Below, piece after piece: positions 5,332 through 53,287 of a stretch of 64,000 nt of DNA. The notes beneath the pieces were generated by a model. It was not told the DNA's origin and ran no database searches. It saw only the letters and a list, made by a program, of their open reading frames with translations. This stretch comes from Notolepis coatsorum (taxonomy: Eukaryota > Chordata > Actinopteri > Aulopiformes > Paralepididae), in assembly GCA_963971535.1 (NCBI GenBank), contig OZ020589.1, positions 75,830,811 to 75,894,810 of the forward strand, in the 5' to 3' direction. The stretch's first letter is position 1, and each line of letters opens with the position of its first letter. Position numbers and translations under genes: made by a program.

Positions 5332-5342
5332 TTAACTCAGAA

Positions 5343-9838: not shown

Positions 9839-10063
9839 TGTAGTATCTTAATAGAAGAGACCGTGGTAGTGCTCAGTTGTGCTTTATTCACAGTTGGTAT
9901 TCATACAGGTAAACAGTGAAACCCGCAGCCAGTCCCTCTGGCTGCTCCTTATTCTGACACAGAGCGCTCCGAGGCGCCTCTGGTTCACGTAACAGTAACC
10001 AATGATAAGCAAGACATGTGACACCTTAACATCAGGGGAGTTGTAGTCCTACACTACACTACA
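9839..10063 (-). repeat. Gypsy 3' LTR
   Basis: 225 bases, TGTAGTGTAG...ATACTACA on the minus strand; reads identical to 14161-14385. Confidence 0.92.
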
Positions 10064-10089
10064 CTCCTCCCCTACCCTGATTCCTGAGA

Positions 10090-14022: not shown

Positions 14023-14160
14023 TTCCCCGCCACGAGTTCCAAGAGAGAAAAAAAAAACGTGGAAGCTAGCTTGACTATTATTCTTTCTTCGGCTACAAGC
14101 CTACAACCTCTATTTCCGAGGTGGACACAAACGTGTGTTTTGCTTTATCCTCGTCGCCAC

Positions 14161-14385
14161 TGTAGTATCTTAATAGAAGAGACCGTGGTAGTGCTCAGTT
14201 GTGCTTTATTCACAGTTGGTATTCATACAGGTAAACAGTGAAACCCGCAGCCAGTCCCTCTGGCTGCTCCTTATTCTGACACAGAGCGCTCCGAGGCGCC
14301 TCTGGTTCACGTAACAGTAACCAATGATAAGCAAGACATGTGACACCTTAACATCAGGGGAGTTGTAGTCCTACACTACACTACA
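14161..14385 (-). repeat. Gypsy 5' LTR
   Basis: 225 bases, identical by eye to the 3' LTR. The plus-strand flank after it is ctaagcag, where the host hAT resumes. Confidence 0.92.
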
Positions 14386-14485
14386 CTAAGCAGTAAAAAT
14401 AAACTGACCTGCAGTTACAACCAAGACTGGCAAACGACACATGCCTGGGTGAGGCCGATGTCAGGCAATCCTCAGGGAGCTTTCT

Positions 14486-15368: not shown

Positions 15369-16188
15369 TGTTGACAGAATTGGCTATGGGGCGACAATAA
15401 TATACTCATGAGGCATGGTTTCTACCTTGAGCCCTTAACCTGTTAATCTGTAGACCGTTTTCGCCTAAAGGTAAATGGAAGATTGCTCCACTTCTGCAAG
15501 GTCAATTTGCATGTTCTTGGTATCTAGGAACATCTAGGGACCTGGGGGTATGTATTTCCAGTGTCAGAAATATTGTGTCTGTTACTAGGCTGAGTAAATT
15601 GTAATGAATACATTAATTATGATTAATTATGATTTATGATTTTGATGATGATGATCAAAAATGTAAAACATTTTCTGAAAAATGCTTACTGATCTCATTC
15701 ACCACCTTATTGAGATCATGTGTACAAAAAATCTAAGCAAATGAACCGCGGGAAGATGATTAAACAGAAGGATTTGTAGATACAGTAATGAATTATAATC
15801 GACTTTAATTATAAATTCATATTTGACCTTGAACTTGACCTTGACCTTATTATGGCCAAATCATACATCTATGGATAGGAAAAATGCTCCTCTTTCCAAT
15901 GGCAGGGTTGAATCTGGATTTAGTCATTTCTTGCGGTTTTTCGGCGTGGTTTATTATTCACATTGGTTCATAGTACAGCAGCACATGAGGTCTCCTCTCC
16001 GTGAGAGGTAGATGGGGAAGAGATAGAGGGGGAGGAGACATCTCCTTAAATACCCTCCACCTGGCAGTAGCATTAGCGGCTCCGCCTATAGCACCCTCTA
16101 GTGGAAACAGTTATGTACAGTCAGTGGAAACAGTTGTGTACAGTTAGACAGTTACTTGTAATCCTACATATAACCTCTAACTTTAACA
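15369..16188 (-). repeat. Copia 3' LTR with 502 extra bases
   Basis: 15369-15438 and 15941-16188 match the right LTR. 15439-15940 has no counterpart there. The extra block is AT-rich, begins cctgttaatctg and ends ttcttgcggtttt, without clear inverted repeats or target duplication. Confidence 0.85.
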
Positions 16189-16639
16189 CTCCCACTTAGG
16201 GTTGTCTAGCACACTGTATAACTTCTTCAAAAACTATTTACAAAGAAAATAATACAGTTCAGAACATCAAAAAGAATATGGCAGTCAATATTTACACACC
16301 AAACATGACCTCTGCAAATCTTTTAAATTTCAGTTTGGAAGCTGGTTTCGTCATAGCGTCTGCTACCATGTCGTCTGTTGGACAATAAATCAGTGCCATT
16401 CTTTCTTCTCTGATGACAGATCTAATGAAATGGTATTTTATATTGACATGTTTACATCTCTATCGGCACACAGGGTTTCTAGCAATCGCAATGGTTCCCT
16501 GGTTGTCCTCGTAAACAACAGTCTTCTTATATACATAGGTATCCATCCCTTCGAGCAGTTGTTCTAGATAAATACATTCCTGTATTGTCATAGCTAGAGC
16601 CATATATTCGGCTTCACAAGTTGATAGTGCCACTGTGGG

Positions 16640-18300
16640 CTACGTCTTTGTTTTCCATGAAACCAGTGAGCTGTTTGAGTTCAAACTCACGCAATATCCT
16701 GTGGTACTTCTTCTATCTGTGGTGTCAGCTGCCCAGTCTGCATCACTGTAGGCTTTAAGCCCTAAGCCCTCGCTGCTCTTTCTGAAACAAAGCTGTTTAT
16801 CTGCTGTACCTTTGAGATAACGAAAAACATGTTTTACCGTAATCCAGTGCTCCTCTGTGGGATCAGCAAAATGCTGTGACAATTTACTCACTAAAAAACA
16901 TAGGTCAGGGCGAGTACATGTTGTCAAATAAATGAGGCTACCCACAGCTTCTCTGTAAATTTTTACATCTGTCAGTTTCTGAGCATCCTCCTGGTAGTCT
17001 AGTTTTTGATCACATGGTGTTTCCCTTGGTCTACATTCTTGCATGTCAAAACGTTTCATGATCTTTTCCACATATCTCTTCTGGGATATTTTTACACAAC
17101 TGGCAGGCTGTTCAAAGTCCATGCCTAGAAAATGCTTTAACCTGCCAAGGTCTTTCATTTTGAATCTGGTGGAGAGCATACCTTTCACCTGTTCTAGGTT
17201 TCTAGTGTTGTCTGCTGCGATGATCAAATCATCCACCCAAATGACGATTATCACTTTTCCTGACTCTTTTGACTCCCTTGAGTAAACACAGGGGTCTACT
17301 GGGTTCTGTAGGAAGTTATCTTCAATGAGACATGTGTGAAGCATCTCGTTCCAATTTCGCCCAGACTGTTTCAGGCCGTAAATGGATTTTTCTAGCTTGC
17401 ACACTAGCTTCTCTCCTTTCTTTTCGTAACCTTCAGGTTGTTCCATATATATCTTTCTATCTATGGGTGCGTGCAGATAGGCTGTCTTCACATCCATCTG
17501 ATGTAGAATCAAATTGTCCTCAGCTGCTTTCTGCATCACTACCCTTACACTGGTCAGATTGGCTGTGGGGGAGAATGTTTCACCGTAGTCTATCCCCTCC
17601 CTCTGACAGTAACCTTTAGCTACAAATCTCGCTTTGTACTTGTCGTGGCCTTCAATACCCTCCTTGATTGAATACACCCATTTACCTCCCACTGTCTGTC
17701 TGCCCTCTGGTAACTTGGTTAGAGTAAAGGTGTGGTTGTCCTCTAGGGACCTCATCTCCTCATCCATTGCTCTCTCCCATTTCCTTGATTCAGGGGACAC
17801 TATGGCCTCTTTAAAGGTCTGAGGTACCCCACTGACTACTCTGTAGCAGTAATCAATGGTGGTAAGTGTACTGTCATCCTCGTCACTTTCTCTCTGGGCA
17901 TAGTCTGTCAGATACTTTGGGGGTTTGTGTTCCCTTGAGGGATACCTCCCACTGCTTGGGGCACATGACGTCACCCTCGGGTGCTCCTCGTCATCGCCCT
18001 CTGGGGGTTGCTGACTGTCTGTCTGCACGACCGTGCTAAGTACACTGGGCTGAGGTGTCTCTGTTTCTTCACACCTTACTCTGGAGTCCAGCTCTGGCTC
18101 CTCTGTCTGTGTCTCGTTCTCACATGTTGTCTTTGTGACAAACTTGACTAGCCTGTGTTTCTGCACACCCCCTTTACCGGGATAATAAACTAGGAAAGCG
18201 GGGCTTCCTTTGTCGTGCCCTACAAAGAGTCCTTTTTCACATCTGGACTCGAGCTTTCCTCTGTCCTGCAGGTAAGCATAACACACTGATCCAAATTGGT
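16640..18300 (-). pseudogene. Copia reverse transcriptase-RNase H part
   Basis: Fossil pol part of the copia element. It shows the copia-type reverse transcriptase block (WVYSIKEG, then YKARFVAKGY, then WVDDLIIAAD) and the copia RNase H block (AYSDADWA, then STTGYC). The integrase tail precedes it. The order integrase before reverse transcriptase separates copia from gypsy. Confidence 0.88.
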
Positions 18301-18329
18301 GCATCCTAGCTAGATTACACTTCTTTCCT

Positions 18330-20100
18330 GTCAGTGCTGTATACGGGGTGTGCCCGTGTGCTTATTAAAGCACCTGTTTCTGGTGTAAGCGGCTTCTTGC
18401 ACTGCATAATGCCATAGACTCTTAGGTAAGTTACTGTCTACTAGCTTACACCTAGCCATTTTGAAAAGAGTGCGCCATTCCCTCTCTGCCACTCCGTTCT
18501 GGTGTGGGGAATATGGACATGACGTCTCGTGTCTTATCTTGTTCCGTCTCAACAGTGATTGGAACTCTCTGTTTGTGAACTTGTCGTTGTCATTACACTC
18601 TGTTTGCTGATAATACATTCTCTGGTACACCTCTATGTTAAATCGCGTACCGTTAGGCTCTGCAAGAAAATGTTTACCTTCATTGAAGAACACTTTGGCA
18701 CCGTTCGCAGTAGCAGATCTTACAGAGAATAGTTCTTGTGGGAACGAGGGTACGTAGAGAGCGTTCTTTAACGTCACTGTACGCCGGCGCCCCTCACTGT
18801 CTATGAGGCATACCTGTGCGTCTCATCTCTCTTGCGCCAACCCGTAGGTGCGCTTACCATCTGCCAGCTCCATGCTGTGTTTCTCCGGGTGGAAAGTGTT
18901 GTCAAGGTTCTTGAACCGACTCCCGTCGTTGATGACGTGGGACGACGCACCTGTGTCCACGATCAGTCTCTTCCTTTGGGCCTGCTGCAGCTGCGTTGGC
19001 CTGGTGACGTATGCTGTCTGCGCCCCGGGGATGAAGCCCTCTTGTCCCGCTACTCTCCGGGCGTCGCCTCCATTCATCTCACGTCAACCGTCGCCGCCAT
19101 CTTGTCCATGGCCGCCATCTTGTCCATGCGCGTATCGCGCGCTCATGCACGCTCTGTCTGTGTGCCCCGTGGATTTGCAGAAGCCACACCAGACAGTCCT
19201 TGTGCAGTTACCTCTCCGATGGCCTTTCTCTCCGCATCTCCAACACGCCAGCTCCGTCGTGGGCCTGGTCTTCTCCCTCGGCGTCGCTCGGGCCTTCAGC
19301 ACCCTCTCTCCCGCCTCCGCGGCGGCTGGGTGGATATCTTCTGAGGCCTCGAAATTTCGTAACTTGACCTTGAACTTTCCCAGCGTCATGTCCGCTGAAC
19401 CGTGTGTTACCAGGAGCGTGAACGGCTTGTACAGCTCCGGTAGTCCCCTCATCACCATCGCCATCATTAGCCCATCGCTTGGTGCTTCTCCTGCACTTTT
19501 CAATGCCGTAATGATCTGCTCAGCTCTGATGACGTATTTGGTCACAGTCTCGGTGTGCCCCTTCTTCAGTGCTGTTAGTGCTATGTAGAGGGCCACGACT
19601 CTGGGTCTTCCTTGCCCGATATAATGCTCTCTCAACACTCCCAGGCTTTCTCTGCCTTTGTCTTTAGTGTCGCGGAATATCAGCCCCAAGCTTGTGTCGT
19701 CGAGCAGTGGTGCTAACTCACAGTATGCATCTGCATTATGCTTGTCGTCCAGGGCTTGTGCTTCCGCCGCCAGGTCTCCCGTGGGGGCCGTCAAGATCGT
19801 CGTCTTCAGTCCCACAACGTGCATGGAGCATAACATGCGCTCTTCCCAGAGCTCATAGTCCTCTGCCTTTCCATTGAATGAGGGCCATTTGCTCCTTCCT
19901 TTTGTCGCCACGAGTTTGAAGACGGGGTTCTCCCCCTCGCCTCCGTTGGGCTCAGCATGCTCCGTCTCCCCGGTGCCGCCTCGCCGGGGCTCTGTGCGCT
20001 GCTCTCCGGGTGCGTCCGCTTGCCCGCCAGCAGCAGCGCGTCGGTGGGGTCGGTGCCCCGCTTCCTTTTGACATGCAGGATCGTCGTGTTGGATTCCATG
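18330..20100 (-). pseudogene. Copia gag, protease and integrase remnants
   Basis: Fossil parts upstream of the reverse transcriptase: a Gag segment with two CCHC knuckles (CWRCGEKGHRRGNC and CGFCKSTGHTDRAC) at about 19.1-19.9 kb, a retropepsin segment (VDTGASSHVI) at about 18.9-19.0 kb, and an integrase segment (YSPHQNGVAERE) at about 18.3-18.7 kb. Broken. Confidence 0.85.
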
Positions 20101-20243
20101 TTGCTCTTTTGATGGTGGGCGTAGCTTTAGCTCTGTTGGTATAGCCTTTAGCCACGCGGTGCACCCGGCGCTAAACTAGCCTATACTTCAGCTAAACTTG
20201 CTACCCTTATTATTTCGCCCCTGTGTGATCTGGGCCCATAACC

Positions 20244-20561
20244 TGTTGACAGAATTGGCTATGGGGCAACAATAATATACTCATGAGGCATGGTTTCTAC
20301 CTTGAGCCCTTAATCGGCGTGGTTTATTATTTACATTGGTTCATAGTACAGCAGCACATGAGGTCTCCTCTCCGTGAGAGGTAGATGGGGAAGAGATAGA
20401 GGGGGAGGAGACATCTCCTTAAATACCCTCCACCTGGCGGTAGCATTAGCAGCTCCGCCTATAGCACCCTCTAGTGGAAATTGTTATGTACAGTCAGTGG
20501 AAACAGTTGTGTACAGTTAGACAGTTACTTGCAATCCTACATATAACCTCTAACTTTAACA
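20244..20561 (-). repeat. Copia 5' LTR
   Basis: 318 bases, TGTTAAAGTT...TCTGTCAACA on the minus strand. The adjoining internal sequence (ggttatgggcccagat) sits where the primer-binding site is expected. Confidence 0.88.
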
Positions 20562-21109
20562 CTCACTCACTCATTCACTCACTCACACACATCAAAGACT
20601 ATGACCATTGTATTAGAGCAGTTGACCAGCTAGCTTGAATAGGCTGGCGTGTCCAGACGGCTATGTGGATTCTGTAACTATAAGGCATGTCTGTTGATAC
20701 CCAGAGACACAGTTTATAGCTGTCAGCTGGAAGAGAGGACGTTTTTGACTTGAATGCGGTACAACCCTTTTTGCCTGTTTGCTGAATAAAACAAACCAAA
20801 CCAGAAGCCATTTTGCTTTGAAATCGTGGTCCAGACTACTTTCCTGCTTTTGAACCAGAACCAGCTTTTACCAAAGGAATATACAACACGTATTTACTCA
20901 CGTTTCTGTTTATGCTGAAGCTAAAAGTGTCATGTTACCACATGTTGGACCATGAGTGGTTTAACCTATTAGTGACATCACACATACAACTTCATGTTAC
21001 AGAGAAGCTCTCCCTCTCCACTGGATGCAATTGAAAAGGGAGCTCTGGTGACAAATTCAGCACAAATAACAATCTGTATAGTACAGTATAGTCAAAGTCA
21101 TGTTAATGT

Positions 21110-25194: not shown

Positions 25195-25671
25195 TGAATG
25201 AATGAATGAATGAATGAAAACTTTATTTAACAGATTGCAGAATGGGTACAATACAGTACGGCTCAATACACACAATTGTTAAGGGGATGCAGACCTGAGA
25301 AAGACGTTTGTCTTGTTTCCATCAGGGTCCCCTATTTTCAATTCATATAGACATTTATGACATACACAACATACATGACATTTATGGCATAGGGACATAT
25401 AGGTATTTAGTACTGATACATTTGTGACATAAACGGTATTCAAATATACAGTACTGTTACCCCTAGATCCTGACAGAGTATATACATATGATGGGGAGGG
25501 GACTGTACATTAGGAGGGGGTGGGTGGGTGGGAGAGAAATATACATACGGCGGGGAGGGAATATATACATGCGGTGGGGAGGAGACTGTCTATTAGGAGG
25601 TGGTGGGGGTTTTGGGCATTTACGGTGGCCAGTTTCGAATTGCAGCCTCCCATAGGTGCTCTTTAAGAGCG

Positions 25672-25860
25672 GTTCTGTATCGTTAGTGGCTTAGCTTGGC
25701 ATCGCTACTGCACTATCTCGCGTACGTGCACGCGTACTGAATAAACCACAAATGTACCTCTAATACCAGTATTAGTCTGACCACACCCCTCATCAGCTTA
25801 CCTTCATAAGCAGGTGTGTGGTCACCTGCTCTCCTCCTTCTCGCTTTCACCACAAGGAAG
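25672..25860 (+). repeat. DIRS-like left inverted terminal repeat
   Basis: About 185 bases matching the reverse complement of the right repeat. It includes gtacgtgcacgcgtactg and ends in the CT-rich cctgctctcctccttc. Confidence 0.85.
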
Positions 25861-28800
25861 AGGTGCCTCGGTAGATCCCCACACTTGACACCATGATGGA
25901 AGAAATTGGATTAGGAACAGCTTGGGAAACAAGGATACGTTGACATCATATCTTTATTTTCTCTCTCACTATTTTCGAGAAAATACGGCGATATTGTCTT
26001 CGTACTGGAGTGTCTAGAAGATGATGATCATTCTAAAAAACCCTCCACCGGTTTTCGTATTGGGAGCACGCCGCTGCATGCTTCTCAACTGCAGTTCCTT
26101 GCTGTGTTTGTTGGGGTGAAACCTGTCAGGCCACAGCTGAACTGTCGGACATGCCGCTGTTGTGAGGAGCGGTGCGTTCCAGGTTGGGTGAGTAGTGTTT
26201 GCTGGCGGGCTCCACTTGTCTGTTAGTGCTATGGGGGCTACTTGACAAAGTTTATGGAAACCGGCCCCAGGCTAGGGTCCTTTGTTTAGCCGCCTAGGCG
26301 ACAGAAGGCCTTGGTCTGGCGACCATTATAGTTTTAACTAGTGGGCCGCGACCATTGACACTGGTGATCCCTGTGTGTTCTGGACGAGTGGATTCTCTCT
26401 GTCACCGTGTTAAGACCCCATCTTTCATATCCAAATGAGAGTATTCCTTCACGAGGGGATATGTGCATGTAATGTGCGATAGCGGCAGATTCATGTTCAA
26501 AGTCAGCTATACAGGCCAGTTGGTACTGTGCTGATTCCGCCGGACGTGGTAATGTCACCGTTGTGAAGCGGTGTTGACGTCTTGTTTTCTCTTTTCTCTT
26601 AAAAAGTGAGGAGGGGTTCAGAACGGCGGCCTGTCTGGGTGAGTGTTATGTCATTGTTTACATGTTCATGGCTTACGGTTAGCCGGTCAGTGGCCTGGCG
26701 CGGGGTAGCTTAGCTTCTCGCGCGCCGCCGGGAGCTCGCTTCTGATCGCGTGCGTCGTTAGATCGGCGTCTCGCGAGCGGAAGCAATAGCACCCGAACGG
26801 TTGGAGCAGCCGTTAGCTTGATGCTATTCTGTTGAACGTGCTTTGATTTTAACATGTTTTACACTCTTGACCACGACGTCATCCTTGACAGGGGATGTTC
26901 GTCGACCCTGCCTGAGCCTAGACGGGGATTGCGTCAACAAAGAGGACTGTAGCGACTGGTGGAGCGGCGACGCTGCCCGGGTCGAACAACACAGGACGGC
27001 TGTGTTCTACGGTGTCTTGTGACTGCACTTCGCTGATCTGCGTTCCGGGTAGGTACGGGGTTGGCCAGACCTCATGACACGTCTTCTGGTTTTACTTTGC
27101 TAAATGTATTGTGAATAACGGTGTTTTTTTTTTCCCAAAACGTGTGTTGTTGCAATGCATTTGGGATACGTTGCGGGTTGTGTGTGAGCTGTTTTTGTCA
27201 CTGGCAGTTAGCTTCTCCGTGCAGATCGTGATGTATTGATCTGGTTGTTGTGTGAGAAACATCATGGTGTTTATGTGTACCGTGTACTCACTACTAAGGC
27301 AACTGACCTATGAAGCTATGCTTGGTGACAAGTGAGTAAAAGAATGTTCTTTCTCAGACTGTAATGACAATGAACAGTGAGTTCACACATTAACAGGTTT
27401 TCCTGTTTTAACTGGCCGTATTGAGGGTAAAATAGGAGGATTGTGTTTTCCCCCCCCGGTTCCCTGGGGACTTTATCACCTCCTATCAGACATGTTGTGC
27501 ATTAATTGTGTCTTTTGTGTGGTAGGGATACGATGTGACTCTTAGCTTGATTGCTGAGGTTGTGCTAAATCTGCTGGAGAAACTTATTTCCTAAAGGGAA
27601 ATTGGTTTGGTTGCTGTCATGTGTGCTTAGCAAGGCCTGTGGTCGATACTAATCAAGAATGATGTATTCTCTCATTGTGAAAAAAACGGCGTTCCTCTGT
27701 TGAGTGTTTTTGCCATTTTTTGTAGGTGATGATGGGTTGTGTGTGTCATGTGACCTACAACTGGGTTGTACTGGCCACAGAAGCACATGTGTATGTTGGA
27801 CCGGGGTTCTTAGAGCCTTCTCTATTCTGTGTTTTTCCATAGTAAAAATCAGATAGCAGGTTAGCTCATGCGCTGTGTGGAGCTGTGAAACGCTTCATAG
27901 AGCTGACTATGACTGTGTCATATTCTCTTTTTGTCGTTACGTCGTATCATGGGTGTGGGGTCGTAAAGGGGTGAACTGGTAACCTTTCCTCTCCCCATTG
28001 TTCTGTCGGTCAGGGGTACACCCCCTGTCCTTCAAGGTTCCCGTCACGTGGCGGTTCGGCACGTTACGGGGGGGGGGGGGGGGGGGGGAGGGAGTTCCTG
28101 GTCCCACGGCCTGGTATATTGGGCGTGTGCACCGCAGGAATTCCCCCGCCATAGAGTACGTCACCGTGCGCGTCTCTGTTGGTAGGACTTCCGTGTGCTG
28201 TTCAGGTCCATGTGATGGATCTGTTTTCAGGGGGGGTGGTCAGGGCTCCTCCTCACCAAGCGCCTACTCAGGCCTTCTGTGAGTTCGGACTCCTTCTTCC
28301 ATGTGAGGAAGCCTCCATCAGAGTACAGAGCCTTCCTCCTCAGATTGTCAAAGTGAGTGGACCCTCTAGAAGGGTCCTTTTCTATTGTATGTATATTCGA
28401 TTCAATTCGTTTATTGAGTGTGTATGGGTTCGGTGCCTCTTCCCCGGAGGCCCTAAAACCAGTTTTTTACATGGCTCAAGGTGCAATATATTCTTTTCAA
28501 TCTGTACAGCTCGCGTGGGAAGTCTCTCTGGGGATCCCCGTCTCTTTCCTATGGGAGGGTGGTGGGATGTAAAAATGTGAACATTTTTTACCCCGGCTGT
28601 GTAGACTGGGATACATACTGTTGATGCTTCCTTCTTTCTATTCCAGAAGTGTTGGAGTTAGGGAGTGTCACACCCCTCTTGTCGTTCCCCTGGGCGCCTT
28701 GGGGATTCAATGACAGGTCTAAATAGCCTGTTCATTGATGGGGGTGTGTCCCGACGCACGTATAGTGCTAGCTCGCTGTAAACAGGCGATTGACTGGCAC

Positions 28801-29287
28801 GCCTTGGTTGCTTGTGGTTGAAACAGCGTTTTTATAAAGCAACTGAGATGGGGGTTTTTCCTCTTCCGGCGACCACATCCCATGACCTGGGTGGGTTGTC
28901 GACGGATTCTCGTTCATGTCTGGGGGATGATGACGGGATGGATCTGAACATATGTAGTGGGGTCTCACGCCCTTGGGGTGGGCCACCAGGCGCGGTTCGT
29001 CCGAACGTCTGGGTGGCGCCTTCTTTTCATGTTAAGATCAACACGCATATCTGCCCTTCTCCTGGAGTAGGCATGTCGGCGTGGTTAGGGCACGGGACTG
29101 GTTCTGGTCACGCTGGTCCAGATCAGTTGAACCCGTTGTCCGCCGGGGATGCAGATCTGCTGTTCTGGTACCCTGAGGGACTTGGGCTTTTTTCAGGGGG
29201 AAAAATGCCAGGTCGGTCTGGGTGTCACAGGGTTAAGCGCTATGGAGACCCTGGTTGGGTATGTTTTTACTCAGCACTGTCGTCATG

Positions 29288-29406
29288 GCTTACAGCCATG
29301 CCATTCTGTACGCGCTCGATCTCGTCGGATCTCGGCCGCTACACAGGTTGGTCCTGGTTAGTACTTGGTTGGGAGACCGCCGGGGAATACCGGGTACGGC
29401 GTGCTT
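29288..29406 (+). pseudogene. 5S rRNA-like segment 1
   Basis: 119 bases align by eye end to end with vertebrate 5S rRNA. Matching blocks are gcttacagccatgcc (5' end), gctcgatctcgtcggatct, ctggttagtacttgg and gggagaccgcc, then ggaataccgggt. Several substitutions are seen, including in the box A region (cgctacacagg for agctaagcagg), so it is more likely 5S-derived repeat sequence than a functional gene. It lies inside the DIRS-like element. Confidence 0.82.
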
Positions 29407-30066
29407 AGGGGCTGGTTCTCCATTATTTTTCGCTCCTCTCTCACGCATGGCGAAGAGGGGCCTGTGGGGGTGGTTTTTTGACCTCCTCTGGTGACCCTGT
29501 GCTTCCCGTACCGCCAGGCCCGGTCCGAAGTGATGTTTGCGACCCGTAGGCCTGGGTTAATCCTTTTTGGAAACTGAAACACTTGTACTGCGGTATAGCC
29601 GGTGTATACCCGCAGGTGTGTTTTGGAGTTTTTTCTTGAGGGGTTATAGGAACAACCACCGCATTGGGTAACACCGAGGTGGTTGATTCCCTGGTGTGTT
29701 GGAGCAGTGTCAACTCCCGGGTTCACCGTTTGAGGGTGCCCCTGCACGTTCATGACGTCTGCCAATCGTGTCAGCCTTCTCTGCCTCGACCCCTCTGGGT
29801 GGGGGTTGTTAAATGGAGGCTTGGTCATGCAACACCGCCAGCTTACGCTCCTTCCGCCGGGGCGGCTGTGTTCAGCTGTCCCCTCTGGCGCCTGTCTCGT
29901 CCGCAGTCTCCAGGCTAGGGTTAACAGCCTGTTGCCTGGTTTTTCCCCGGTGCGCTGCCTGCTTCCGTTGGTTAACCTTTTTTGTGTGCTTACGGCCATG
30001 CTGACTGCCTATTCTGCAGGGTCAGTGTGCCAGGCGGTGTACTATTGGGGGGACGGGGCCCGCTCG

Positions 30067-30170
30067 GCTTACGGCCATACCGACCTGAACACGCCCGATC
30101 TCGTCCGATCTCGGAAGCTGGGCGGGTTCTGGCCTGGTTGGTTCCGCCTGGGAATACCAGGTGCAGTAAC
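30067..30170 (+). pseudogene. 5S rRNA-like segment 2, internally shortened
   Basis: It matches vertebrate 5S rRNA (gcttacggccataccgacc, then acgcccgatctcgtccgat, then cggaagctgggc, then cctgggaatacc). About 17 bases around the tagtacttgg region (box C side) are missing. It is on the same strand as segment 1, 779 bases downstream. A functional 5S gene is unlikely with part of the internal promoter gone. Confidence 0.8.
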
Positions 30171-30658
30171 TGAGGGGCCTTTGTCCGAATACGCTGGCGA
30201 TGTGGGGGGCGGGGCACTACGTGCCCACCTGGTGGGGTCTTGATGCTGGCATCATGGACTTCTCCGGGCCCCCATTCTAGGGAGTCCAGTCCTTTTGGTG
30301 GGTCTGGGTCTTCCTTCGTGCTCCGCTGCTACGGCCTTGCCACGGGGTTGGGTTTGCCCTTGACCCCGTGATTCTGGGGGCAGTAACGAGGTTGTTCCTC
30401 CGTTCGTTCCCGGGTGGCATGCGGGTTGTGCGTGTGTGTAGTCGTGGGGTCAAGCCACGGTCTGCTCACCCTGTGCGTTGAGTTGCTTGAGTGCCTCTTC
30501 GCACGGTCGGGTCCGTCGCCCTCCCGTGACGTCCCTAATAGGGGGGCTACCCTCCATTAGGGGGGGTCGGGGGGGCTCGGCCCTCCCTGTTCTGATGGTT
30601 TTGGGGGGCTGTCAGCGGGGTGTATTTGTCAGCCAAGTGGCTCCGCTTGGCCTCCCTT

Positions 30659-30754
30659 GTGCAGTAGCGATGCCAAGCTAAGCCACTAACGATACAGAAC
30701 GTTAGGTTATGACTATAACCAAGTTCTGTTAGTTAGGGGCGATGCTTGGCATCG
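30659..30754. repeat. DIRS-like internal complementary region
   Basis: 42 bases complementary to the left tip and 54 bases complementary to the right tip meet at 30700/30701 (aac|gtt). In DIRS elements this region is thought to template the ends during circular replication. Confidence 0.78.
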
Positions 30755-30795
30755 GACGGCCGCTGCAGCCCTTGTCCTCACCTTGTGGTGAAAGC

Positions 30796-30992
30796 TTGGG
30801 AAGGAGGAGAGCAGGTGACCACACACCTGCTTATGAAGGTAAGCTGATGAGGGGTGTGGTCAGACTAATACTGGTATTAGAGGTACATTTGTGGTTTATT
30901 CAGTACGCGTGCACGTACGCGAGATAGTGCAGTAGCGATGCCAAGCATCGCCCCTAACTAACAGAACTTGGTTATAGTCATAACCTAACGTT
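30796..30992 (-). repeat. DIRS-like right inverted terminal repeat
   Basis: Reverse complement of the left repeat plus a right-only outer extension (cataacctaacgtt at the edge). Confidence 0.85.
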
Positions 30993-31718
30993 TTGAATGT
31001 GGGTAGGGATTCACATTCTTTTACAGCTTTGGGTAGGGCGTTCCACATTGATGTGGCATAATTGCGAAACGTATTTAGTCCCTTGTTTGAGCCGAATCTG
31101 GGTTTAACATGATTTGTTGAGCTTCCTCTGGTGTAGTGGTTGTGGTATTCACTGACCTTTGGGAAGTATTTTGACATGTACATGGGTACCTTAGTCGTAT
31201 AATGTATCTTGTAGACCAGGCCCATTGCAAGTGGCTGTACTCTGTCGTCTACTCTAAGCCATCCTAGGTTGTCAAAGTGGGCAGGGGTGAGGTGGGTTCT
31301 GGGGGTAAGGTCAAGTAGTAGTCTGACCAGTTTGTTTTGTGATGTTTGTAATTTTGTTTTAAGCGCCTTTGAGGTGCTTTGGTACCATAAGGTGCACGCA
31401 TAGTCGTAGTACCCTTGAATGAGTGCTCCTGCCAGAGTCTTCAGGGTATTCTTGTTTACCAGAGAGGAGATCCGGTACAAGAATCTAGTTTGTTGGTTGA
31501 CTTTTTTTTATTACATTGGATGCCATTTTGTCACAGGAAAGATTTGCCTCTAGGATGGAACCCAGGTAGGTAATTTCGTCTTTCCTTGTGACAATATTGT
31601 CACCCACTGCAACTGAGAAGCCGTCGGTCTTGCTGAGTTTGTTATTTGAACCGAAGAGAATGGACTCTGTTTTGCCCATGTGTAATGATAGTTTGTTATC
31701 AGAGAGCCATATGCATAT
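30993..31718 (-). pseudogene. LINE reverse transcriptase C-terminal region
   Basis: Minus-strand frames encode KTESILFGSNNKLSK and ITYLGSILEANLS (31679-31485), then NTLKTLAGALIQGYYDYACTLWY through SKALKTKLQTSQNKLVRLLLD and MWNALPKAVKECES (about 31500-30993). These words are typical of the connection and C-terminal region of CR1/L2-type LINE polymerases of fish. The two blocks are in different frames, shifted at an A-run near 31503-31512 (a run of T on the plus strand), so this copy is dead. The catalytic YxDD region would lie upstream and is not present. Confidence 0.82.
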
Positions 31719-33020
31719 TGTAACTGAGGGGTTACAAAACCCTGACTGTATTAAAGATTGTGATAGATTAAACCACTGTTAGGTATGTACTTTAATTACT
31801 GGCCAGACAGTACATCAAATATAGATGGTGAACACTCACAAGAACACGGCATTGACAAAGAAATAGTATTTGAGGGTATTTTATTATTATGCAACATTAG
31901 GTTACAGAATGAGAATTAGGGTCGCGCTTGTATGGCGAAGAATATGAATAAAGTCAGTCAGCAGCATGAGTCACTGGGAATAGCAGGATTCCTACGATGG
32001 GTCTAAGTTGACGCCACCTGTCGTATAATAGCAACTATATAAGGCAACGCTGGTACCGCCTGGAGACAATGGGTTCCCTCCGGGGTGTAAGGCATGGAGG
32101 GTAGAGGAATGTTCGGATACTCAGTCTGATTCAATGAAGAATAAAGAGACTCCACGTACAGGAGTCGGTCCTTGTAAATCCAACGATCAGCAGCAAAGCA
32201 ATAATTGTAATCCAAATGCTCGATAGCACTGATGACAGCTAGCCAGCCTCTGTCCATGAGGCCAGCCCGAGTTGTAATCCTCACGAGGTTGAATCCCAAA
32301 CGACAGTGGAAATCAACGAGGCTATTCTCCGGGTAACACGTTCCAAATCAATATAATCCAACCAGTAATGGTTCTGCAATCGCCGACGCTGGTTCTCCTG
32401 TGCACATGTCCAACGGTTCTCCGACTAGGCCTCCTCGGGTGCGGGCGACGTATTTAGGCCACACACCCTGGCTAAGGTACACTAGCTAAAACACGACGAA
32501 CCGCTGGGTAATGCTACACACGAACGAACTGTGGTTGCACGATATACAATAAATGAACGACTATTTACTTCACATTAGATTAGGTCGAACTTGATGTTAC
32601 TACATTAAACTCTGACACTTTACTATTCTATTCGCACATGTTCTCAACGCACGAGTGCTCAATTTACATGATGAACTACGTTGGCTTGTTTAGATGGTCA
32701 AGCAGGTGATCTTGAAGTTAACTACTACTGTGCGCACCTTGCGCTGTATATATACTTAAGTGATTATCTAGTCCCAAACCGCAGTCCTTGTCTGGGATCA
32801 ATACGCTGTCTCCGGGCATGTTCTGACATGCCTGAACTTGTCTTTGAACCTGACATTGGGGGCTTGCGAGGTGGCGCCTAGGGCGCTGTCCAATAAGGAG
32901 AGCGAATATTACTCTGGTTTGAATGCAGGTAAAGGGATATTCCGTGTATATATAAATAATATACAAAGTATAACTAACAATAAAGGTAGATTCTCAGTTT
33001 TAATCTGGCCCTTCACAACA
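31719..33020 (-). repeat. BEL 3' LTR (31.7-kb element)
   Basis: 1302 bases, TGTTGTGAAGGGCC...CCCCTCAGTTACA on the minus strand. Preceded on that strand by the purine-rich ttaggaggcggc. Confidence 0.92.
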
Positions 33021-33114
33021 GCCGCCTCCTAATTAGTCCGCACCTAATTAGTTAAGGGAGACAGATTAATAGTCCAGTCAACTGCTCAATGTCTGTTGTG
33101 AGGAGTAGGGCAAT

Positions 33115-34400
33115 CTACAAAGTCAGTGGGTCATGATCGTCATCAGGGGAGTCAGGGAGCCTCGGCAACTCTATCAGCCTCGCCACGGGTCGGGTGTAGG
33201 TCCGCCCTTGGACAATAACTTCTGCCGCTCTGACCTTCCCGTCGGCACCAGTGATCACCTTGCTTATGCGGCCGGCCGGCCACATAGCTCGGGGTAGTGA
33301 CTGGTCTATGATCATAACGACTGTGTCCACTTGTAAGTTGTCTCTGTCCTTTACCCACTTCTGACGGGTTTGGAGAGACGGTAGGTAGTGGAGGAGGAAA
33401 CTGTTCCAAAACTGGTCAGCCAATATTTGACTGTACCTCCACATTTTTCGGCCGTTCGCTTCTTCAGGTCTGTACACCGTCTGTGGAAGCGCAGGGTCCA
33501 GCCGCCCCATCAAGAGAGTGTTGGGGGTGACTGGGTCGACATCTGCTACATCACTTGAGACGTAACCGAGGGGCTTTGAGTTCAATACTCCCTCGATCTC
33601 CGTGAGGACTGTCGTGAGGACTTCTTCCGCCACGGTCTGGGCCCCAAGCACGGCGTACAGAGCTGTCTTTATGAAACGTACTTCTCTTTCCCAGGTTCCC
33701 CCGAAGTGAGGGGCGTTCGGGGGGTTAAACTGGAATTCGATCTGATAGGGAGCGAGGTGGGTCTTAAGTTCTGGGCCCATGGCCTGGAAGCTCTCTCTCA
33801 GCTCTCTTTCTCCGCCTTTGAAGTTTGTCCCGTGATCAGACAACAACGTAGACGGTTTTCCTCTTCGTGCTGTGAATCTCCGGAAGGACATGAGGAATGA
33901 ATCCATACTCATGGTCGGAAGGAGTTCTATGTGTACTGCTCGGGTGGTCATGCACTTGAATACAATGCCCCACCTCTTCTCTGTCCCTCTTCCTTTCTTC
34001 ACGTAGAGTGGGCCGAAGCAGTCCACGCCCGTGGAGTGAAAGGGCTTCTCGCCGAGTCGGAGGCGACAGGGAGGCAGGTCGGCAATCATGGGTATACTGG
34101 GCTGTGCTCGCCACTTGCGACAGTCTAGACAGGTCCGCTGGAAGCGACGTACTGCTTCTCTTACTTGCACTATCCAATAACGGCGTCGGATCTCAGCGAA
34201 GACTCTCTCTGCCCCAGCGTGGTGCACATCCTCGTCGTATTTCTTTATGATGAGCTCAGTGACCTTGTGTCGGCTGTTGAGGACTATAGGATACTTGACG
34301 TCATCCGTTAAGTCCGGGGCCCGTCTCAGACGACCACCCACCCTGATGAGGCCATGGGTGTCGCGCTCAGGGGCCAAGTGGAGCAGTCTGCTGTCTGACG
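33115..34400 (-). pseudogene. BEL integrase part with DUF5641-type end
   Basis: It contains an integrase zinc-binding region (HHAGAERVFAEIRRRYWI, then CLDCRKWR), the core (GVDCFGPLYV, LLSDHGTNFKG, PPNAPHFGGTWER) and the C-terminal BEL-specific domain (MWPAGRISKVITGADGKVR). It ends about 95 bases before the 3' LTR. Confidence 0.88.
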
Positions 34401-34599
34401 GGATTGGCTTTGTTCCCTGCAGGCAGTCTAGCTCATCGGGGAACGAGTCTCTTTGGGCTCGCTGTAGCAGAAGGAGTTCTGCCTCTGCGTAGTTCGATGC
34501 GTCAATGTCTGTAGTGGGGGGAACCTCAGGGTGGTGCCACAGGAATGTTTTTAGCTGCGCACTCTCAAAGGTGAGGCAGTCGTCTATGTTAGGGTCAGT

Positions 34600-36250
34600 G
34601 GGGACTGGGGTGTACGTCAGTCCACAGATTTCTTGATCTCTGCCTCCTCTTGACTAGCCTCCCGTGGGGTGGGGGTAGGCCACTCCTCCTCCGGGAGCTT
34701 GAGGAACTCAGGACCGTCACTATAGATATTGGGACGTGTGAGGTCATCTAGGGACATCCCCCGTGTGATGACATCGGCTGGGTTCTGTTTCGTGTCCACG
34801 TACCTCCAGCACGCTGATCCTACCAGGTCTTGAATCTCTGTGATTCTGACTCCCACGAAGACCTTGTATCTACAAGAATCGGACTGGATCCATGTGAGTA
34901 CGGTCATGGAGTCTGACCACAAGATTGTTCTTTGCACCGGGATGGTGAGTTCACGTTGGATTAACGTGGCGAGTTGCGCGCCTACCAGAGCTGCGCAGAG
35001 CTCTAGACGCGGGATCGATTGTTGCTTGAGGGGGGCTATCCTTGAGCGAGCCAGGATGAAGGCTGTGTGTATTTCTCCTCCCTCCTCTCGGGCCCGCAAG
35101 TAAGCCACCGAACCGTAGGCTACCTCCGAGGCATCACTGAAGACATGCAGGTCCATCTGGCACGTCTCCAGCCGCACCGTGGGTGGGAAGTAGCTCCGGC
35201 GTATGTTCACATTTTGGAGTGAGCTGAGTTCTCTCTCCCACTCTCTCCAGGTGGAAGCTAGGTGGTCGGGTATGGGGTCGTCCCAGCCCTGTTCCTTGTC
35301 CCACAGCTCTCGTACAATCATTTTCGCCCGAGTGGTGTAAGGTAGGATACACCCCAGCGGGTCGTATTGACTTGCGAGTGTTCTGTATACGCTCCGTCTG
35401 GTGGTCGGTAGAGGGGTCGACCTTCCCTGCTCCGGGGTCAGGGGTGTGTATTTGTAATGGAGCGAGTCTGTTTTGAAGCGCCAGACTAGGCCCAATGTCA
35501 TTTCCTGTGCTTCACCTGGGGTGGTCGCAATCCAGGTCTCGCTGCTTGCTGCCTTTGTCTCTGGGGAGAGGCTGCGAAGTACTTGAGGGTCACTGCTGGC
35601 CCACTGCCGGAGATCAAAGCCGCCTTTGATCAGTGAGGCGCGGAGCTTGAGTAGGAGGGCTTCGGCTTCTTCTGGCGTCAAGACGCTTTGCAGACAGTTG
35701 TCCACGTAGAAACTCCTCTCTACACTTTGTCTGACCTCCTCGTCAGCTTCAGGGTCTTCTGTCACATGTTTTTGTAGTGCGAACGTAGCACAGCATGGGC
35801 TGCATGTGGTGCCGAAGGGGAGGACCTCCCATTGGTCGATGGATGGTTGCTCATCGTTGATCCTCTCTCTCCATAGGAACCGCAGCAGGGGCTTGTCCTC
35901 CTCCACTAGTCGCACCTGCAGGAACATCCCTTTGATGTCGCCGCTGATGGCCACCTTGTCTTGGCGGAAACGTAGTAGTACGCCGAGGAGAGAGGGGCCG
36001 AGTGTCGGGCCGGGCAAGAGTTCTTTATTCAGATTCTGTAGTCCGATCTGGTAGCTGCAGTTGAATACAATGCGATCCTTGCCGTTGTGGTGGACCTTGT
36101 GGTGGGGCACGTACCAGGATTCAGTCGTCTGGTCGGCCTCTTGAATGTCAATTTTCTTTATGTGTCCCGCTGTGATCAGCTTGTCGATCTCAGCGCGGTA
36201 CACAGTGGCTTGAGTGGTGTCTTTGGCTAGATGCCGCTCGGTGTTCAGTA
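34600..36250 (-). pseudogene. BEL reverse transcriptase-RNase H part
   Basis: The polymerase part has the BEL words WYVPHHKVHH, FYVDNCLQSV and DPLGCILPYT and a BEL-type RNase H (HVFSDASEVAYG). Reverse transcriptase precedes RNase H and integrase, as expected. Confidence 0.88.
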
Positions 36251-36299
36251 GATATCGCTATGTCGCTTCTTTTGAGGCGTGGAGGGTGGGCATACCCTC

Positions 36300-39200
36300 T
36301 CGCCTCAAGAGTGGAGTTGCGTATCTCATCACTCCGTTGACCTCGACTCTCTTTGTCTTCTGCTCGAGGAGGGCTATGGCATAAGTGTCTTCCTTTGAGC
36401 GAACAAGTTTCTTTTCATTCTTAAAGGGCATCGCGTCTAATGTCCATAGCCTCTCGACGTGCTGCAAGAGGGTGGTGTCGTCTTCGTTTATCCTCGTGTA
36501 GAGGCAGCGAGGGGCTGTCGGTCGGTTGGAAGACCCGGAGAGGGGGCCTTGTAGTGTCCAACCCAGGCGGGTCTCGACCGCTGCTGGACAGCCTCTGGGC
36601 CCGATGTGGACCCGGTCCGTGGGGACGATGAGGTGTGCGTGGTCGGATCCTATAAGCAGGGTCGGGGTGGCGTCGTCGATGAGCGGTATAGGTAGTTGAC
36701 GTAGGTGCACGTATTTCTCCGTCAGCTTTGTGATGGGGTAGGTGTACCGTGACAGGCCTATGTCGTGGCTGGTGAAGGCGTTAGTGATGCTATACTGCTT
36801 CTCGGGCTGCTCGACCGCTGCTATCGTGAAGGAGACATTTTCACCCTTTATGGTCTTCAGGTCTCTTCTAATGGTACGGATTGTCATTGTTTCTTCGTTC
36901 CCCCGCAGACCCAGCCGGGCTGCGGCGGATGCGAGGAGGAGAGTCTTTTCTGACCCATCATCTAGGACGGCGTAAGTGTCCATGACCTTGTCCTCGTAGC
37001 TTAGGAGCACTCGGACCACCTTCAAGAGCACTCGGGAGCTCCCGCTCTTCGCAGGGTCTATGTACATGACGTTCACTCTCGAGCTGCTTGGGGGTACGGG
37101 TCTCCTCTTGTTGCTGTCGTGTAGGACCTCCAAGTGGGCGCCGTCACACTTGCTGCATCTTTTCTTTAGGCGGCACTCAGCTGCCATATGGCTGCGCGCG
37201 CAGCGGAAGCAGCGGCGGTTGGCTTTGATCCACTGACTCACCTCGTCAGCGGTCAGCTTCTTGAAGGTGTCACATTGAGACAGCCAATGTTCATTTTCAC
37301 AGTACTGGCATACAATCTTCCACTTCCCCTTCACGTGGGGGGTGCTGTGGTTCTTGTGCTGCGGCACTGACTCGGCCTGGTGCATAACTGTCACTGACCG
37401 GCGATTATCGTTGGACCTCCGAGGTCCATCTCTTGGGCTAGAGCCACTCCACACGAATGTGTCCAGTCGTAGACTGCTAACTTCCCTTGCGAGGAAAGCA
37501 GCCAGGTCTAGGAGGGATGGTTCTGGGCCGTTGGGGTCACGGTGGTCTCTCTGCCGCCGAAAACGCTCTTGGTGGGCTGGAGGGAGCTTCTCCAGTATCC
37601 GCTCCACATTAGAATTTGCATACAGTTCATATCTCCCCTTCTCCTTTTGGGACCCCAGCATCCCCACGAGGGATTGTACCTTGATAGAGAGGTCATCCAG
37701 TGCTCTATTGTCTTTGGCTGGGGGGAGGCGGTCGATATCTCGTATTTCTTGGATCACGTAATCCCATATGCGTCCATAGCGCGCGTCGAGGGCCACCAGA
37801 GCCGCGGAGTATGGGGTGCTTGAGTTGGAATATGCCAGCGCTATGTTATGCGCTCTGGGCACCTTGAGATGCTTGAGGAGGATGGCATATTTGTACGACT
37901 CGTCGTGGACATCGGACATCATAGTCTCTAAACACATGCGTAATTCCGTGTACTGTGCTCTGTCCTCGCGCGTAAAGTCTGGGAACGTCGGTGTGCCAAG
38001 GTAAGATGCCATGGATGGCTGGTTCATTGGTGAGCATAGGGGAAGAGGCCTCCTGGGCGAGTCTCCCCGTACGGGTGGTCGTGGGTTAGTACTTGGTGGG
38101 TACCAGAGGCCGGGTCCCCAGGTGCTGTTCCTCGGTGCTGACTGTACGTCAAACTCACCCTTGAGTTGGGTCGGGGGTTTGTAGTGCAGTGACTCGGGGC
38201 TGAAGTCGGGGCTGTACTGGGCCTCTTGGTCCAAAGTATGTTCGTGCTGGTGGGCTTGATATCCCTCCTCTTCCTCCTCTAGGTCCTGGAGTCTCCTAGT
38301 TAGTCTCTCGGCGACGTAGGCCGGTTCTTCCCGTTGGCTGGGTCTCGTATGGACCCGTCGGGGAGGGGTCTCGGAGACGTAGGCAGGTTCTTCCTGTTGG
38401 CCGGGTCCCGGGTAGCTTTGTCGGGTAGGGGACGGTGCCCTAGACCCTTGTCGTGATGATCTCCGGGAGCTCCGTGCGGAGAGAGGGGGTGTCGCCCTGG
38501 CGATCAATTGTTCTATCATCTGCGCCTGCAGCCGGTCGCGCTCTGCTTCGCGCTGCGCATTGGCGGCGTCGCGCTCTGCTTCGCGCTGTGCATTGGCGGC
38601 GGAGCGCTGTGCATTGCCGCGGTCTCGTTCGATGTTCTCTTCCGTCTGAAGGCGCCTCTCCTCCAGTCTGATGCGGTCGTACTCACTCCTTTGTTGCGCC
38701 TGGAGGCGCTCTCGTTCCGTTGCAGAGTGTTCGCGCTCGCTTAATTGTTGCGCCTGGAGGCGCTCTCGTTCCGCTGCAGAGTGTTCGCGCTCGCTCAATT
38801 GTTGCGCCTGGAGGCGCTCTCGTTGTTCGCGCTCGCTCATTTGTTGAGCCTGGAGGCGCTCTCGTTCCACAGCAGAGTGTTCGCGCTCACTTAATTGTTG
38901 CGCCCAGAGGCGCTCTCGTTCCGTAGCAGAGTGTTCGCGCTCACTAAGGGCTTGTGCTTGGAGTTGCGCGTGAAGGCGCTCTCGTTCCGTGGCAGAGTGT
39001 TCGCGCTCACTAAGCGTCTTTGCTTGAAGCCGGTCGCGCTCACCCTGGAGTCGGTCTCTTTCGGTTGAAGCTGTCAGCGTGGCGATCAAGGCTTGCGCCA
39101 GTCTCTGGTCCGCCTCGCTGGGGGATGACACTGACGGAGGTGATCGGGTGCTGACAGTGCTTGTTGGAGATCTGTTCTCCTGGAGCGCTCCGGGGTCTAT

Positions 39201-39485
39201 CCCGGTGACGCTGTCTGGAGGTATAGTCACGTCATGTCCCACTTGGTCCCCCCCGTGAGCTAAGTCAGTTTGGCTTGAACCCACTGGGGTCTCTACTGGC
39301 GGGGTCGCCAAGTCGATAGGATTGGGCATGCTTAAACTATCCGATTTATCCGTATTTAACGTCTGTTTAGATAAGCTAGGGGGTAAAACGACAGCGAAGT
39401 CCTCCAGATATGGAGGTAGCTGACGTTTGCGCTGCAGGCGTTCTAGCTTAGGGGAGCCGCTTGGAGAGTGTTCACCGCTGGCCAT
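36300..39485 (-). pseudogene. BEL gag and protease part (31.7-40.8 kb element)
   Basis: The gag-side protein begins MASGEHSPSG near the 5' LTR. A long glutamate/arginine-rich coiled coil follows, built of 18-residue repeats (ERERLQAQQLSEREHSA). Next come the BEL capsid-type region (about 37.4-38.0 kb), zinc knuckles (CQYCENEHWLSQC, CFRCARSHMAAEC and CSKCDGAHLEVLH) and a retropepsin-like domain (YAVLDDGSEKTLL). Confidence 0.88.
38690..38995 (-). repeat. 54-base minisatellite coding a coiled coil
   Basis: About five to six units of 54 bases, each coding an 18-residue heptad-like word in the BEL gag. One unit is shorter. The corresponding region of the 46.4-kb BEL has only a short ERDRLQG triplication. 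Confidence 0.88.
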
Positions 39486-39543
39486 GTCAATATTAATATT
39501 ATATTAAATATTACACTGATACCCTCCGGCTCGAAGGACCAAT

Positions 39544-40845
39544 TGTAACTGAGGGGTTACAAAACCCTGACTGTATTAAAGATTGTGATAGATTAAACCA
39601 CTGCTAGGTATGTACTTTAATTACTGGCCAGACAGTACATCAAATATAGATGGTGAACACTCACAAGAACATGGCATTGACAAAGAAATTGTATTTGAGG
39701 GTATTTTATTATTATGCAACATTAGGTTACAGAATGAGAATTAGGGTCGCGCTTGTATGGCGAAGAATATGAATAAAGTCAGTCAGCAGCATGAGTCACT
39801 GGGAATAGCAGGATTCCTACGATGGGTCTAAGTTGACGCCACCTGTCGTATAATAGCAACTATATAAGGCAACGCTGGTACCGCCTGGAGACAATGGGTT
39901 CCCTCCGGGGTGTAAGGCCTGGAGGGTAGAGGAATGTTCGGATACTCAGTCTGATTCAATGAAGAATAAAGAGACTCCACGTACAGGAGTCGGTCCTTGT
40001 AAATCCAACGATCAGCAGCAAAGCAATAATTGTAATCCAAATGCTCGATAGCACTGATGACAGCTAGCCAGCCTCTGTCCATGAGGCCAGCCCGAGTTGT
40101 AATCCTCACGAGGTTGAATCCCAAACGACAGTGGAAATCAACGAGGCTCTTCTCCGGGTAACACGTTCCAAATCAATATAATCCAACCAGTAATGGTTCT
40201 GCAATCGCCGACGCTGGTTCTCCTGTGCACATGTCCAACGGTTCTCCGACTAGGCCTCCTCGGGTGCGGGCGACGTATTTAGGCCACACACCCTGGCTAA
40301 GGTACACTAGCTAAAACACGACGAACCGCTGGGTAATGCTACACACGAACTAACTGTGGTTGCACGATATACAATAAATGAACGACTATTTACTTCACAT
40401 TAGATTAGGTCGAACTTGACGTTACTACATTAAACTCTGACACTTTACTATTCTATTCGCACATGTTCTCAACGCACCAGTGCTCAATTTACACGATGAA
40501 CTACGTTGGCTTGTTTAGATGGTCAAGCAGGGGATCTTGAAGTTAACTACTACTGTGCGCACCTTGCGCTGTATATATACTTAAGTGATTATCTAGTCCC
40601 AAACCGCAGTCCTTGTCTGGGATCAATACGCTGTCTCCGGGCATGTTCTGACATGCCTGAACTTGTCTTTGAACCTGACGTTGGGGGCTTGCGAGGTGGC
40701 GCCTAGGGCGCTGTCCAATAAGGAGAGCGAATATTACTCTGGTTTGAACGCAGGTAAAGGGATATTCCGTGTATATATAAATAATATACAAAGTATATCA
40801 AACAATAAAGGTAGATTCTCAGTTTTAATCTGGCCCTTCACAACA
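39544..40845 (-). repeat. BEL 5' LTR (31.7-kb element)
   Basis: 1302 bases, matching 31719-33020 at about 99 percent by eye. Confidence 0.92.
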
Positions 40846-47793: not shown

Positions 47794-47837
47794 ATTGGTC
47801 CTTCGAGCCGGAGGGTAACTAGTGTAATATTAATATA

Positions 47838-50800: not shown

Positions 50801-51100
50801 AACTCCACTCCTGAGGCGAGAGGGAATGCCCACCTTTCACGCAAAGAAAGACGCTACGGAGCGGTATCTATTGAACACAGAGCGGCGCCTAGCCAAAGAC
50901 CCCGCTCAAGAGAGTGTGTACAGAACACTCGCCAGACAATATGACCCGTTGGGATGTATTCTACCTTACACCACCAGGGCAAAGATGATTGTACGAGCAC
51001 TATGGGACAAGGACCAGGGCTGGGACGACCCAATACCCGCACCCCTTGCCTCCACATGGAGAGAGTGGGAGACGGAGCTCCGCTCACTCCCAGGCGTCAA
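47838..51100 (+). pseudogene. BEL gag, protease and start-of-pol part (46.4-kb element)
   Basis: Gag begins about 45 bases after the 5' LTR. It has an acidic stretch, a coiled coil with the repeated word ERDRLQG, and a BEL capsid-type region (about 49.1-49.7 kb). Zinc knuckles follow (CPYCEKEHWLSQC, CYRCARSHMAAEC, CSRCDGAHLDVLH), then the retropepsin-like domain (YAVLDDGSEKTLL) and polymerase words (DPLGCILPYT). Confidence 0.88.
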
Positions 51101-53195: not shown

Positions 53196-53287
53196 TTGAC
53201 TGACCCTTACAGCGGACCTTGAGTGGTAGACAGTGCGGTTAATCTGTCTCTGCTTAGCTAATTAGGTGGGACTAATTAGGGGGCGGC

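Follow-up and report, generated by a model that had tools for sequence, protein, structure and literature searches.

Can a retrotransposon keep every terminal feature needed for its own copying and insertion and yet carry no gene? A DIRS-type element in the fish Notolepis coatsorum raises this question. The element lies in a 64,000-nt stretch (GenBank assembly GCA_963971535.1, contig OZ020589.1, positions 75,830,811 to 75,894,810 of the forward strand) that was analysed as a whole and is called the window here; all coordinates are positions in it. The element spans 25672-30992 (5321 nt), starting with GTTCTGTATC (GTTCTG... at 25672) and ending with ...CCTAACGTT (at 30992), exactly the borders assigned in an earlier note on this DNA. 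It is a DIRS-type insertion without recognisable genes. Given its complete DIRS-type ends and the lack of any recognisable protein gene, we consider it likely to be a non-autonomous DIRS whose copying, circularisation and insertion were carried out by proteins of an intact DIRS elsewhere in the genome.

Comparison of the two ends revealed inverted terminal repeats (ITRs) at 25672-25840 (left, + strand) and 30800-30967 (right, - strand), each with a conserved and a divergent part as in DIRS1-like elements. The conserved parts, 25694-25840 and 30800-30946, form the longest exact block (147 nt). Outside it lie GTT and the divergent part on the left (25672-25693, 22 nt) and the divergent part on the right (30947-30967). 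At the inner edge of the conserved block, the two arms mismatch at a few bases and then match again over 15 nt (25843-25857 with 30781-30795). The longest exact inverted match of the ends in 200 mononucleotide shuffles was at most 11 nt, compared with the observed 147 nt, and chance is therefore no serious alternative for the origin of the ITRs. Beyond the right ITR, the element continues for 25 nt (30968-30992, + strand) that end in GTT and have no counterpart at the left tip. This one-sided extension, also typical of DIRS1-like elements, is otherwise found only in the element's own internal complementary region (ICR).

The ICR is a 96-nt block, 30659-30754, located just inward of the right ITR on the + strand. 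Its left part (30659-30700) complements the left tip, 25672-25713, at every position (42/42), and its right part (30698-30754) does the same for the right tip, 30936-30992 (57/57). As in DIRS1-like elements, the two parts overlap on AAC (30698-30700), the circular-junction trinucleotide. When a circle junction with a single GTT was modelled, predicted to read ...CCTAACGTTCTGTATC..., the block agreed with it at 96/96 positions. One copy of an 11-nt motif, GCTTGGCATCG, is present in each ITR and in each ICR part, and these four are the only copies in the 64 kb. The motif agrees with the tip motif of at least 10 nt described in PMC3266345 as common to both ITRs and both ICRs of DIRS elements. The short direct repeats in a repeat scan of the element are explained by the ITR-ICR arrangement. 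Split direct repeats of the PAT, Ngaro or VIPER type (A1 ... B1 A2 B2) do not describe the element, because the long repeat shared by its two ends is in inverted orientation and the block close to the right end is complementary to both tips. Folded as RNA, 30655-30758 gives a strong hairpin (z -7.63), which is a consequence of the partial complementarity between the tips and no independent evidence. By analogy with DIRS1, the position of the ICR beside the right ITR would make + the sense strand.

The insertion site fits the same plan. GTT is present at both borders, and the bases beyond differ (GAGCG on the left, TTGAA on the right), so there is no target duplication longer than three bases. 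Insertion without duplication beyond the shared trinucleotide, another DIRS1-like feature, is thus seen at the borders of this one locus. When the flanks are joined and a single GTT is retained, the minus-strand reading ends in ...LPTFKTALKEHLWEAAIRNWPP before a stop (longer reading ...ECESLPTFKTALKEHLWEAAIRNWPP and the stop). All three flank joins that were tried have some open frame across the junction, the one-GTT and no-GTT joins in the same frame and the third one base out of phase, making this a weak, non-discriminating test. We prefer the one-GTT join because it contains FKTALKEHL, which we take to resemble the C-terminal end of LINE (long interspersed nuclear element) open reading frames (ORFs). 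No Pfam match was obtained for the two LINE-like flank pieces scanned. Since every join leaves an open frame, the description of the target as a continuous LINE rests on that motif and on the earlier note. The note had also read the locus as DIRS in plan, citing the ITRs, an internal block made of the complements of both tips joined at AAC/GTT, and GTT at both borders. All of these structural features hold, as does the right-only extension, with its length of about 26 bases corrected to 25 by count.

Among the 28 DIRS elements in Table 3 of PMC3266345, the entries closest in plan are those from ray-finned fish. The values for our element are 5321 nt, trinucleotides GTT, GTT and AAC, divergent ITR 22, conserved ITR 147, right extension 25 and ICR 42-57. 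In the same table GaDIRS2 has GTT, GTT, AAC with 21, 144, 26 and 38-57; GaDIRS1 (5322 nt) has GTT, GTT, AAC with 19, 148, 27 and 46-56; and TnDIRS1a has GTT, GAT, AAC with 21, 146, 27 and 36-57. The hemichordate SkoDIRS2 shares GTT, GTT and AAC but has an ICR of 63-65. The likeness to the three fish elements in their tabulated features thus extends to the GTT start, the AAC junction, the right-only extension, ICR and ITR sizes that differ by no more than a few bases and, for GaDIRS1, overall length. This suggests, from plan and sizes, that the element derives from a fish-type DIRS lineage. The difference lies in the interior: DIRS1-like elements encode GAG, a reverse transcriptase (RT)-RNase H-methyltransferase (MT) protein and a tyrosine recombinase (YR), none of which was recognised here.

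The body (25841-30658, ~4.8 kb), which includes the 15-nt further ITR match at its left edge, is G/T-rich on the + strand and appears to be non-coding. A Pfam scan of 76 stop-to-stop ORFs of at least 40 aa, from all six frames, gave no match to RT, RNase H, MT or recombinase; the best match (E 0.024) was to an unrelated family. As a control, eight other ORFs of the window were scanned, of which four had retroelement domains (RT in three) and four had nothing at E 0.01. Triplet periodicity was likewise absent from the body. Over 39 windows of 351 nt covering 25861-30658, the median was 0.76 and the maximum 1.7, compared with a 95th percentile of 2.15 for the shuffled body, whereas control medians for coding stretches of retrotransposons elsewhere in the window were 2.71 (BEL, 52 windows), 1.92 (a second BEL, 26), 2.23 (Gypsy, 32) and 1.71 (Copia, 12). 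Some single control windows likely fall below the shuffled limit, so that the contrast holds for whole stretches. The two longest body ORFs, both of which overlap a 5S-rRNA-like stretch described below, had no relative at E 0.001 in 5.8 billion proteins, within a word filter that left 265 and 89 word-sharing candidates. The RT/RNase H, MT and YR genes of a coding, autonomous DIRS1-like element are thus not recognised, and because there is neither such a Pfam match nor triplet periodicity, we do not class the element as a coding DIRS. The claim in the earlier note that RT, RNase H, MT and recombinase are unrecognisable in the body is borne out by profiles, homology and periodicity alike.

Other searches of the body returned little. 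It matches nothing in the rest of the window except poly-G, and the only tandem repeat found in 25600-31100 was one poly-G run. This run, 28068-28092, consists of 25 nearly pure G, with similar runs (one of them reversed) near 1200 and 58850. A segment at 28395-28500, starting ATTCAATTCGTTTATTGAG, has what we take to be a resemblance to a LINE or SINE (short interspersed nuclear element) 3´ tail and is without a match in the window. The exact 23-nt right-tip pattern had no match in viral contigs or in bacterial and archaeal genome contigs, as expected of an animal element, and a tRNA scan of the window found none.

The body is not featureless, for it contains two 5S-rRNA-like stretches overlooked in the earlier note. 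In the entire window, two Rfam matches reached the gathering score (38). Both are to RF00001, both are full-length and both are on the + strand of the element: stretch 1 at 29288-29405 (61.1 bits, model positions 1-120 of 120) and stretch 2 at 30067-30172 (54.3 bits), in which a 13-nt deletion takes most of box C. A possible third fragment at 29988-30005 (+ strand, 18 nt) agrees with the start of stretch 2 at 16/18 positions and is weak (E 0.22). Against a human 5S rRNA sequence, identity is 84.9% over 106 nt for stretch 1 and 76.8% over 112 nt for stretch 2, while the two stretches are 70.6% identical to each other over 109. Each is nearer to standard 5S than to the other stretch, and this pattern is compatible with two independent captures, or with an early duplication and subsequent drift.

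Comparison with the same human sequence was extended to the internal promoter. Box A is kept at 10/15 positions and the intermediate element (IE) at 6/6 in both stretches, and box C at 16/18 in stretch 1 and 7/18 in stretch 2. For stretch 1, box positions (32/39 kept) show no clear preference over the others (65/82). Of its 33 scored base pairs, 28 are kept, compared with 24.1 expected if an equal number of substitutions is placed at random, 28 being reached in 4.9% of 5000 trials with this stretch alone; the signal is marginal, and host 5S variants could be its source. Neither stretch is notable in fold stability against shuffles (z -1.54 and -1.07). We considered and rejected a working 5S gene, since the outer helix of stretch 1 has four non-standard pairs among its nine, even though 28/33 scored pairs are kept, and folding is unremarkable in both stretches. 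Also rejected was the capture of part of a 5S array together with its spacer: the stretches lie on the same strand at a distance of 779 nt, but no repeat at such a spacing exists outside the 5S sequence. The interior position of both stretches sets the element apart from terminal-repeat retrotransposons in miniature (TRIMs) with 5S promoters, which have 5S in their terminal repeats and conserved RNA polymerase III (Pol III) boxes. In the SINE3 plan, a 5S head is followed by a LINE-derived tail, the whole being a separate insertion with duplications of its own; the repeat scan detected no tail shared by the two stretches. The stretches resemble relics more than functional genes or promoters, a role being possible but not supported. 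They most likely go back to captures of host 5S sequence long ago and are now passengers.

On this evidence the simplest reading of the sequence is a non-autonomous DIRS derivative, as the earlier note had proposed: the structural features are those of DIRS1-like elements, the tips match the ICR without mismatch, and no protein gene is found by profile, homology or periodicity. The copying of such an element may be pictured as follows. Transcription by host polymerase II from the left ITR would yield an RNA, which the RT of a partner DIRS would copy. The ICR would then align both cDNA ends and serve as template for the tip bases still lacking, so that a circle forms with a single GTT at its junction, and the partner's YR would recombine this GTT with a genomic GTT, which would account for GTT at both borders. 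In the DIRS model as presented in PMC3266345, the tips are matched to their own ICRs in each round. Little divergence is seen between the tips and the ICR or between the ITR arms, and this limits the change possible since insertion. If the inner-edge patch is taken as one change in ~260 columns, arithmetic gives at most ~2% pairwise, or ~1% per copy. Genes intact at insertion would therefore still be readable, ~1% being too little to erase three of them. The body was thus probably already gene-less when it was copied and inserted, and enzymes supplied in trans would be needed.

A bolder version of this reading, which we regard as unlikely, is that the element represents a long-lived family of large gene-less DIRS that made at least two 5S captures and retained them because they serve some function, such as an RNA handle to which 5S-binding proteins of the host attach. 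If true, this would be, within the literature searched, the first tyrosine-recombinase retroelement seen with 5S and would give the first detailed description of an ICR-bearing DIRS parasite.

Among the alternatives, the one that survives best, though still improbable, is that a standard DIRS had its coding interior swapped for unrelated genomic DNA, either in a single chance event (template switching in the course of reverse transcription, or recombination between copies) that founded no family or as an assembly chimera. In line with this, nothing else in the window matches the body apart from poly-G, the 5S pieces could derive from host DNA, and body composition is unlike that of the A-rich BEL coding strands nearby (27-29% A), the + strand having 17% A over 25861-30658 and 13% in the last third. 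However, both tips are at GTT with no other duplication and the ICR is exact to both tips, so the ends were inserted as one unit, and the divergence of the 5S-like stretches (15-23% from human 5S, which is not the host's own) is a better fit to long residence than to fresh capture.

We consider it very unlikely that an autonomous DIRS lost its genes by mutation after insertion. Degenerate DIRS-like copies are reported in Xenopus (PMC9210276), but at this locus the 96/96 agreement of the ICR and the exact 147-nt ITR block leave little time for such decay, and yet neither periodicity nor a profile match is left. It is scarcely credible that this is an autonomous YR element whose proteins are so unusual that current profiles miss them: the longest ORF (216 aa) is just over the shuffled 95% value of 209, but periodicity stays at or below 1.7 in all 39 windows, under the shuffled limit, and the two longest ORFs overlap stretch 1 and gave no relative at E 0.001. 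The proposal that the 5S-like stretches act as an internal Pol III promoter making genomic RNA, as suggested for the Cassandra and Ajax LTR (long terminal repeat) elements, is equally hard to credit, for while stretch 1 keeps the IE in full, most of box C and slightly more base pairs than random placement would leave, its boxes are hardly better kept than the rest, stretch 2 lacks most of box C, both stretches are in the 3´ third outside the ITRs, and nine runs of at least four T between stretch 1 and the right end would each be a likely Pol III stop.

Several points weigh against the interpretation of the element as a non-autonomous DIRS. The Pfam scan was limited to ORFs of at least 40 aa, and it detects intact pol genes rather than every transposable-element protein, so alone it is not fully sensitive. 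In 200 mononucleotide shuffles the 95% value for the longest ORF was 209 aa (maximum 244), which the observed 216 aa slightly exceeds. The conserved ITR was delimited by identity, so that its zero mismatches over 147 nt are partly by construction. The end of a putative sense transcript is not evident from polyadenylation signals, because AATAAA occurs on the + strand just once, within the left ITR (25740), and ATTAAA is absent. Finally, the claim of a non-autonomous family has one insertion as its basis, and a single insertion in one assembly could conceal an assembly error.

The window contains several other repeats. The LINE-like flank of the DIRS element is bordered by a BEL/Pao-type LTR retrotransposon at 31717-40845 (minus strand) with LTRs that are 98.9% identical and CATAT on both sides, in which Pfam detected Pao peptidase, RT, DUF5641 and integrase zinc-binding domains in two ORFs. 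A second, related BEL-type element at 46408-54672 (plus strand) has LTRs that are 99.6% identical and an apparent 5-bp duplication, GTAGG. When the two are aligned, ~800 nt of the first (35395-36197) are passed over; Pfam places the RT in this part, and for this reason the second element may itself be non-autonomous. We also noted a compact Gypsy element at 9839-14387 (100% identity between its 227-nt flanking repeats; a single open gag-pol frame of 1336 aa) and a Copia-type element at 15941-20564 (251-nt repeats, 97.6% identical; coding stretch split over three ORFs). A search with a Gypsy ORF gave 55 hits, and the few of these that carry organism names are two fish, two cnidarians, an insect, a flatworm, a crustacean and a record labelled as a bacterial MAG. 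A 1162-nt direct duplication at 1-1162 and 2035-3196 (99.7% identical) contains a frame with zinc-knuckle-like motifs by eye and no Pfam match. At 5020-5586 is a long inverted repeat, 87% identical to its own reverse complement over 577 alignment columns.

Long interiors without the usual genes between working termini, as in our element, are also a feature of the large retrotransposon derivatives (LARDs) of LTR elements and of TOC1 of Chlamydomonas, which differ in having LTR termini or split repeats rather than DIRS ITRs and an ICR. Like our element, SIRE is a gene-less derivative of a YR retroelement (VIPER); it differs in being ~0.4 kb long and is read as the A2-B2 part of split direct repeats, in contrast to ITRs and an ICR around a 4.8-kb body. 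Retroelements with 5S-rRNA-derived sequence are also known, namely the Cassandra and Ajax TRIMs and SINE3, in which PMC10886601 places 5S in the LTR (Cassandra and Ajax) or at the head (SINE3), with the boxes conserved; the main text of that paper does not contain the term DIRS. Our element instead has two diverged 5S copies in its interior, without preferential conservation of the boxes. In the literature searched (titles and opening abstracts, with Repbase and subscription papers outside), we found neither a gene-less DIRS with ITRs and an ICR nor a DIRS carrying 5S. Within that literature, a gene-less derivative such as SIRE and 5S-carrying LTR elements and SINEs are known already, and the DIRS end plan without genes and with 5S is new.

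These observations add tyrosine-recombinase retroelements to the kinds of element able to acquire 5S rRNA sequence. They also bear on how DIRS are counted. The survey in PMC3266345 started from RT, MT or YR profiles; gene-less DIRS would escape searches led by such profiles and may therefore be under-counted. If the element was mobilised in trans, then DIRS ends, that is, the ITRs, the right extension, the ICR and one GTT, would suffice for copying and insertion without genes of their own, and the element would provide a minimal substrate for testing the DIRS replication cycle, which is still mostly inferred.

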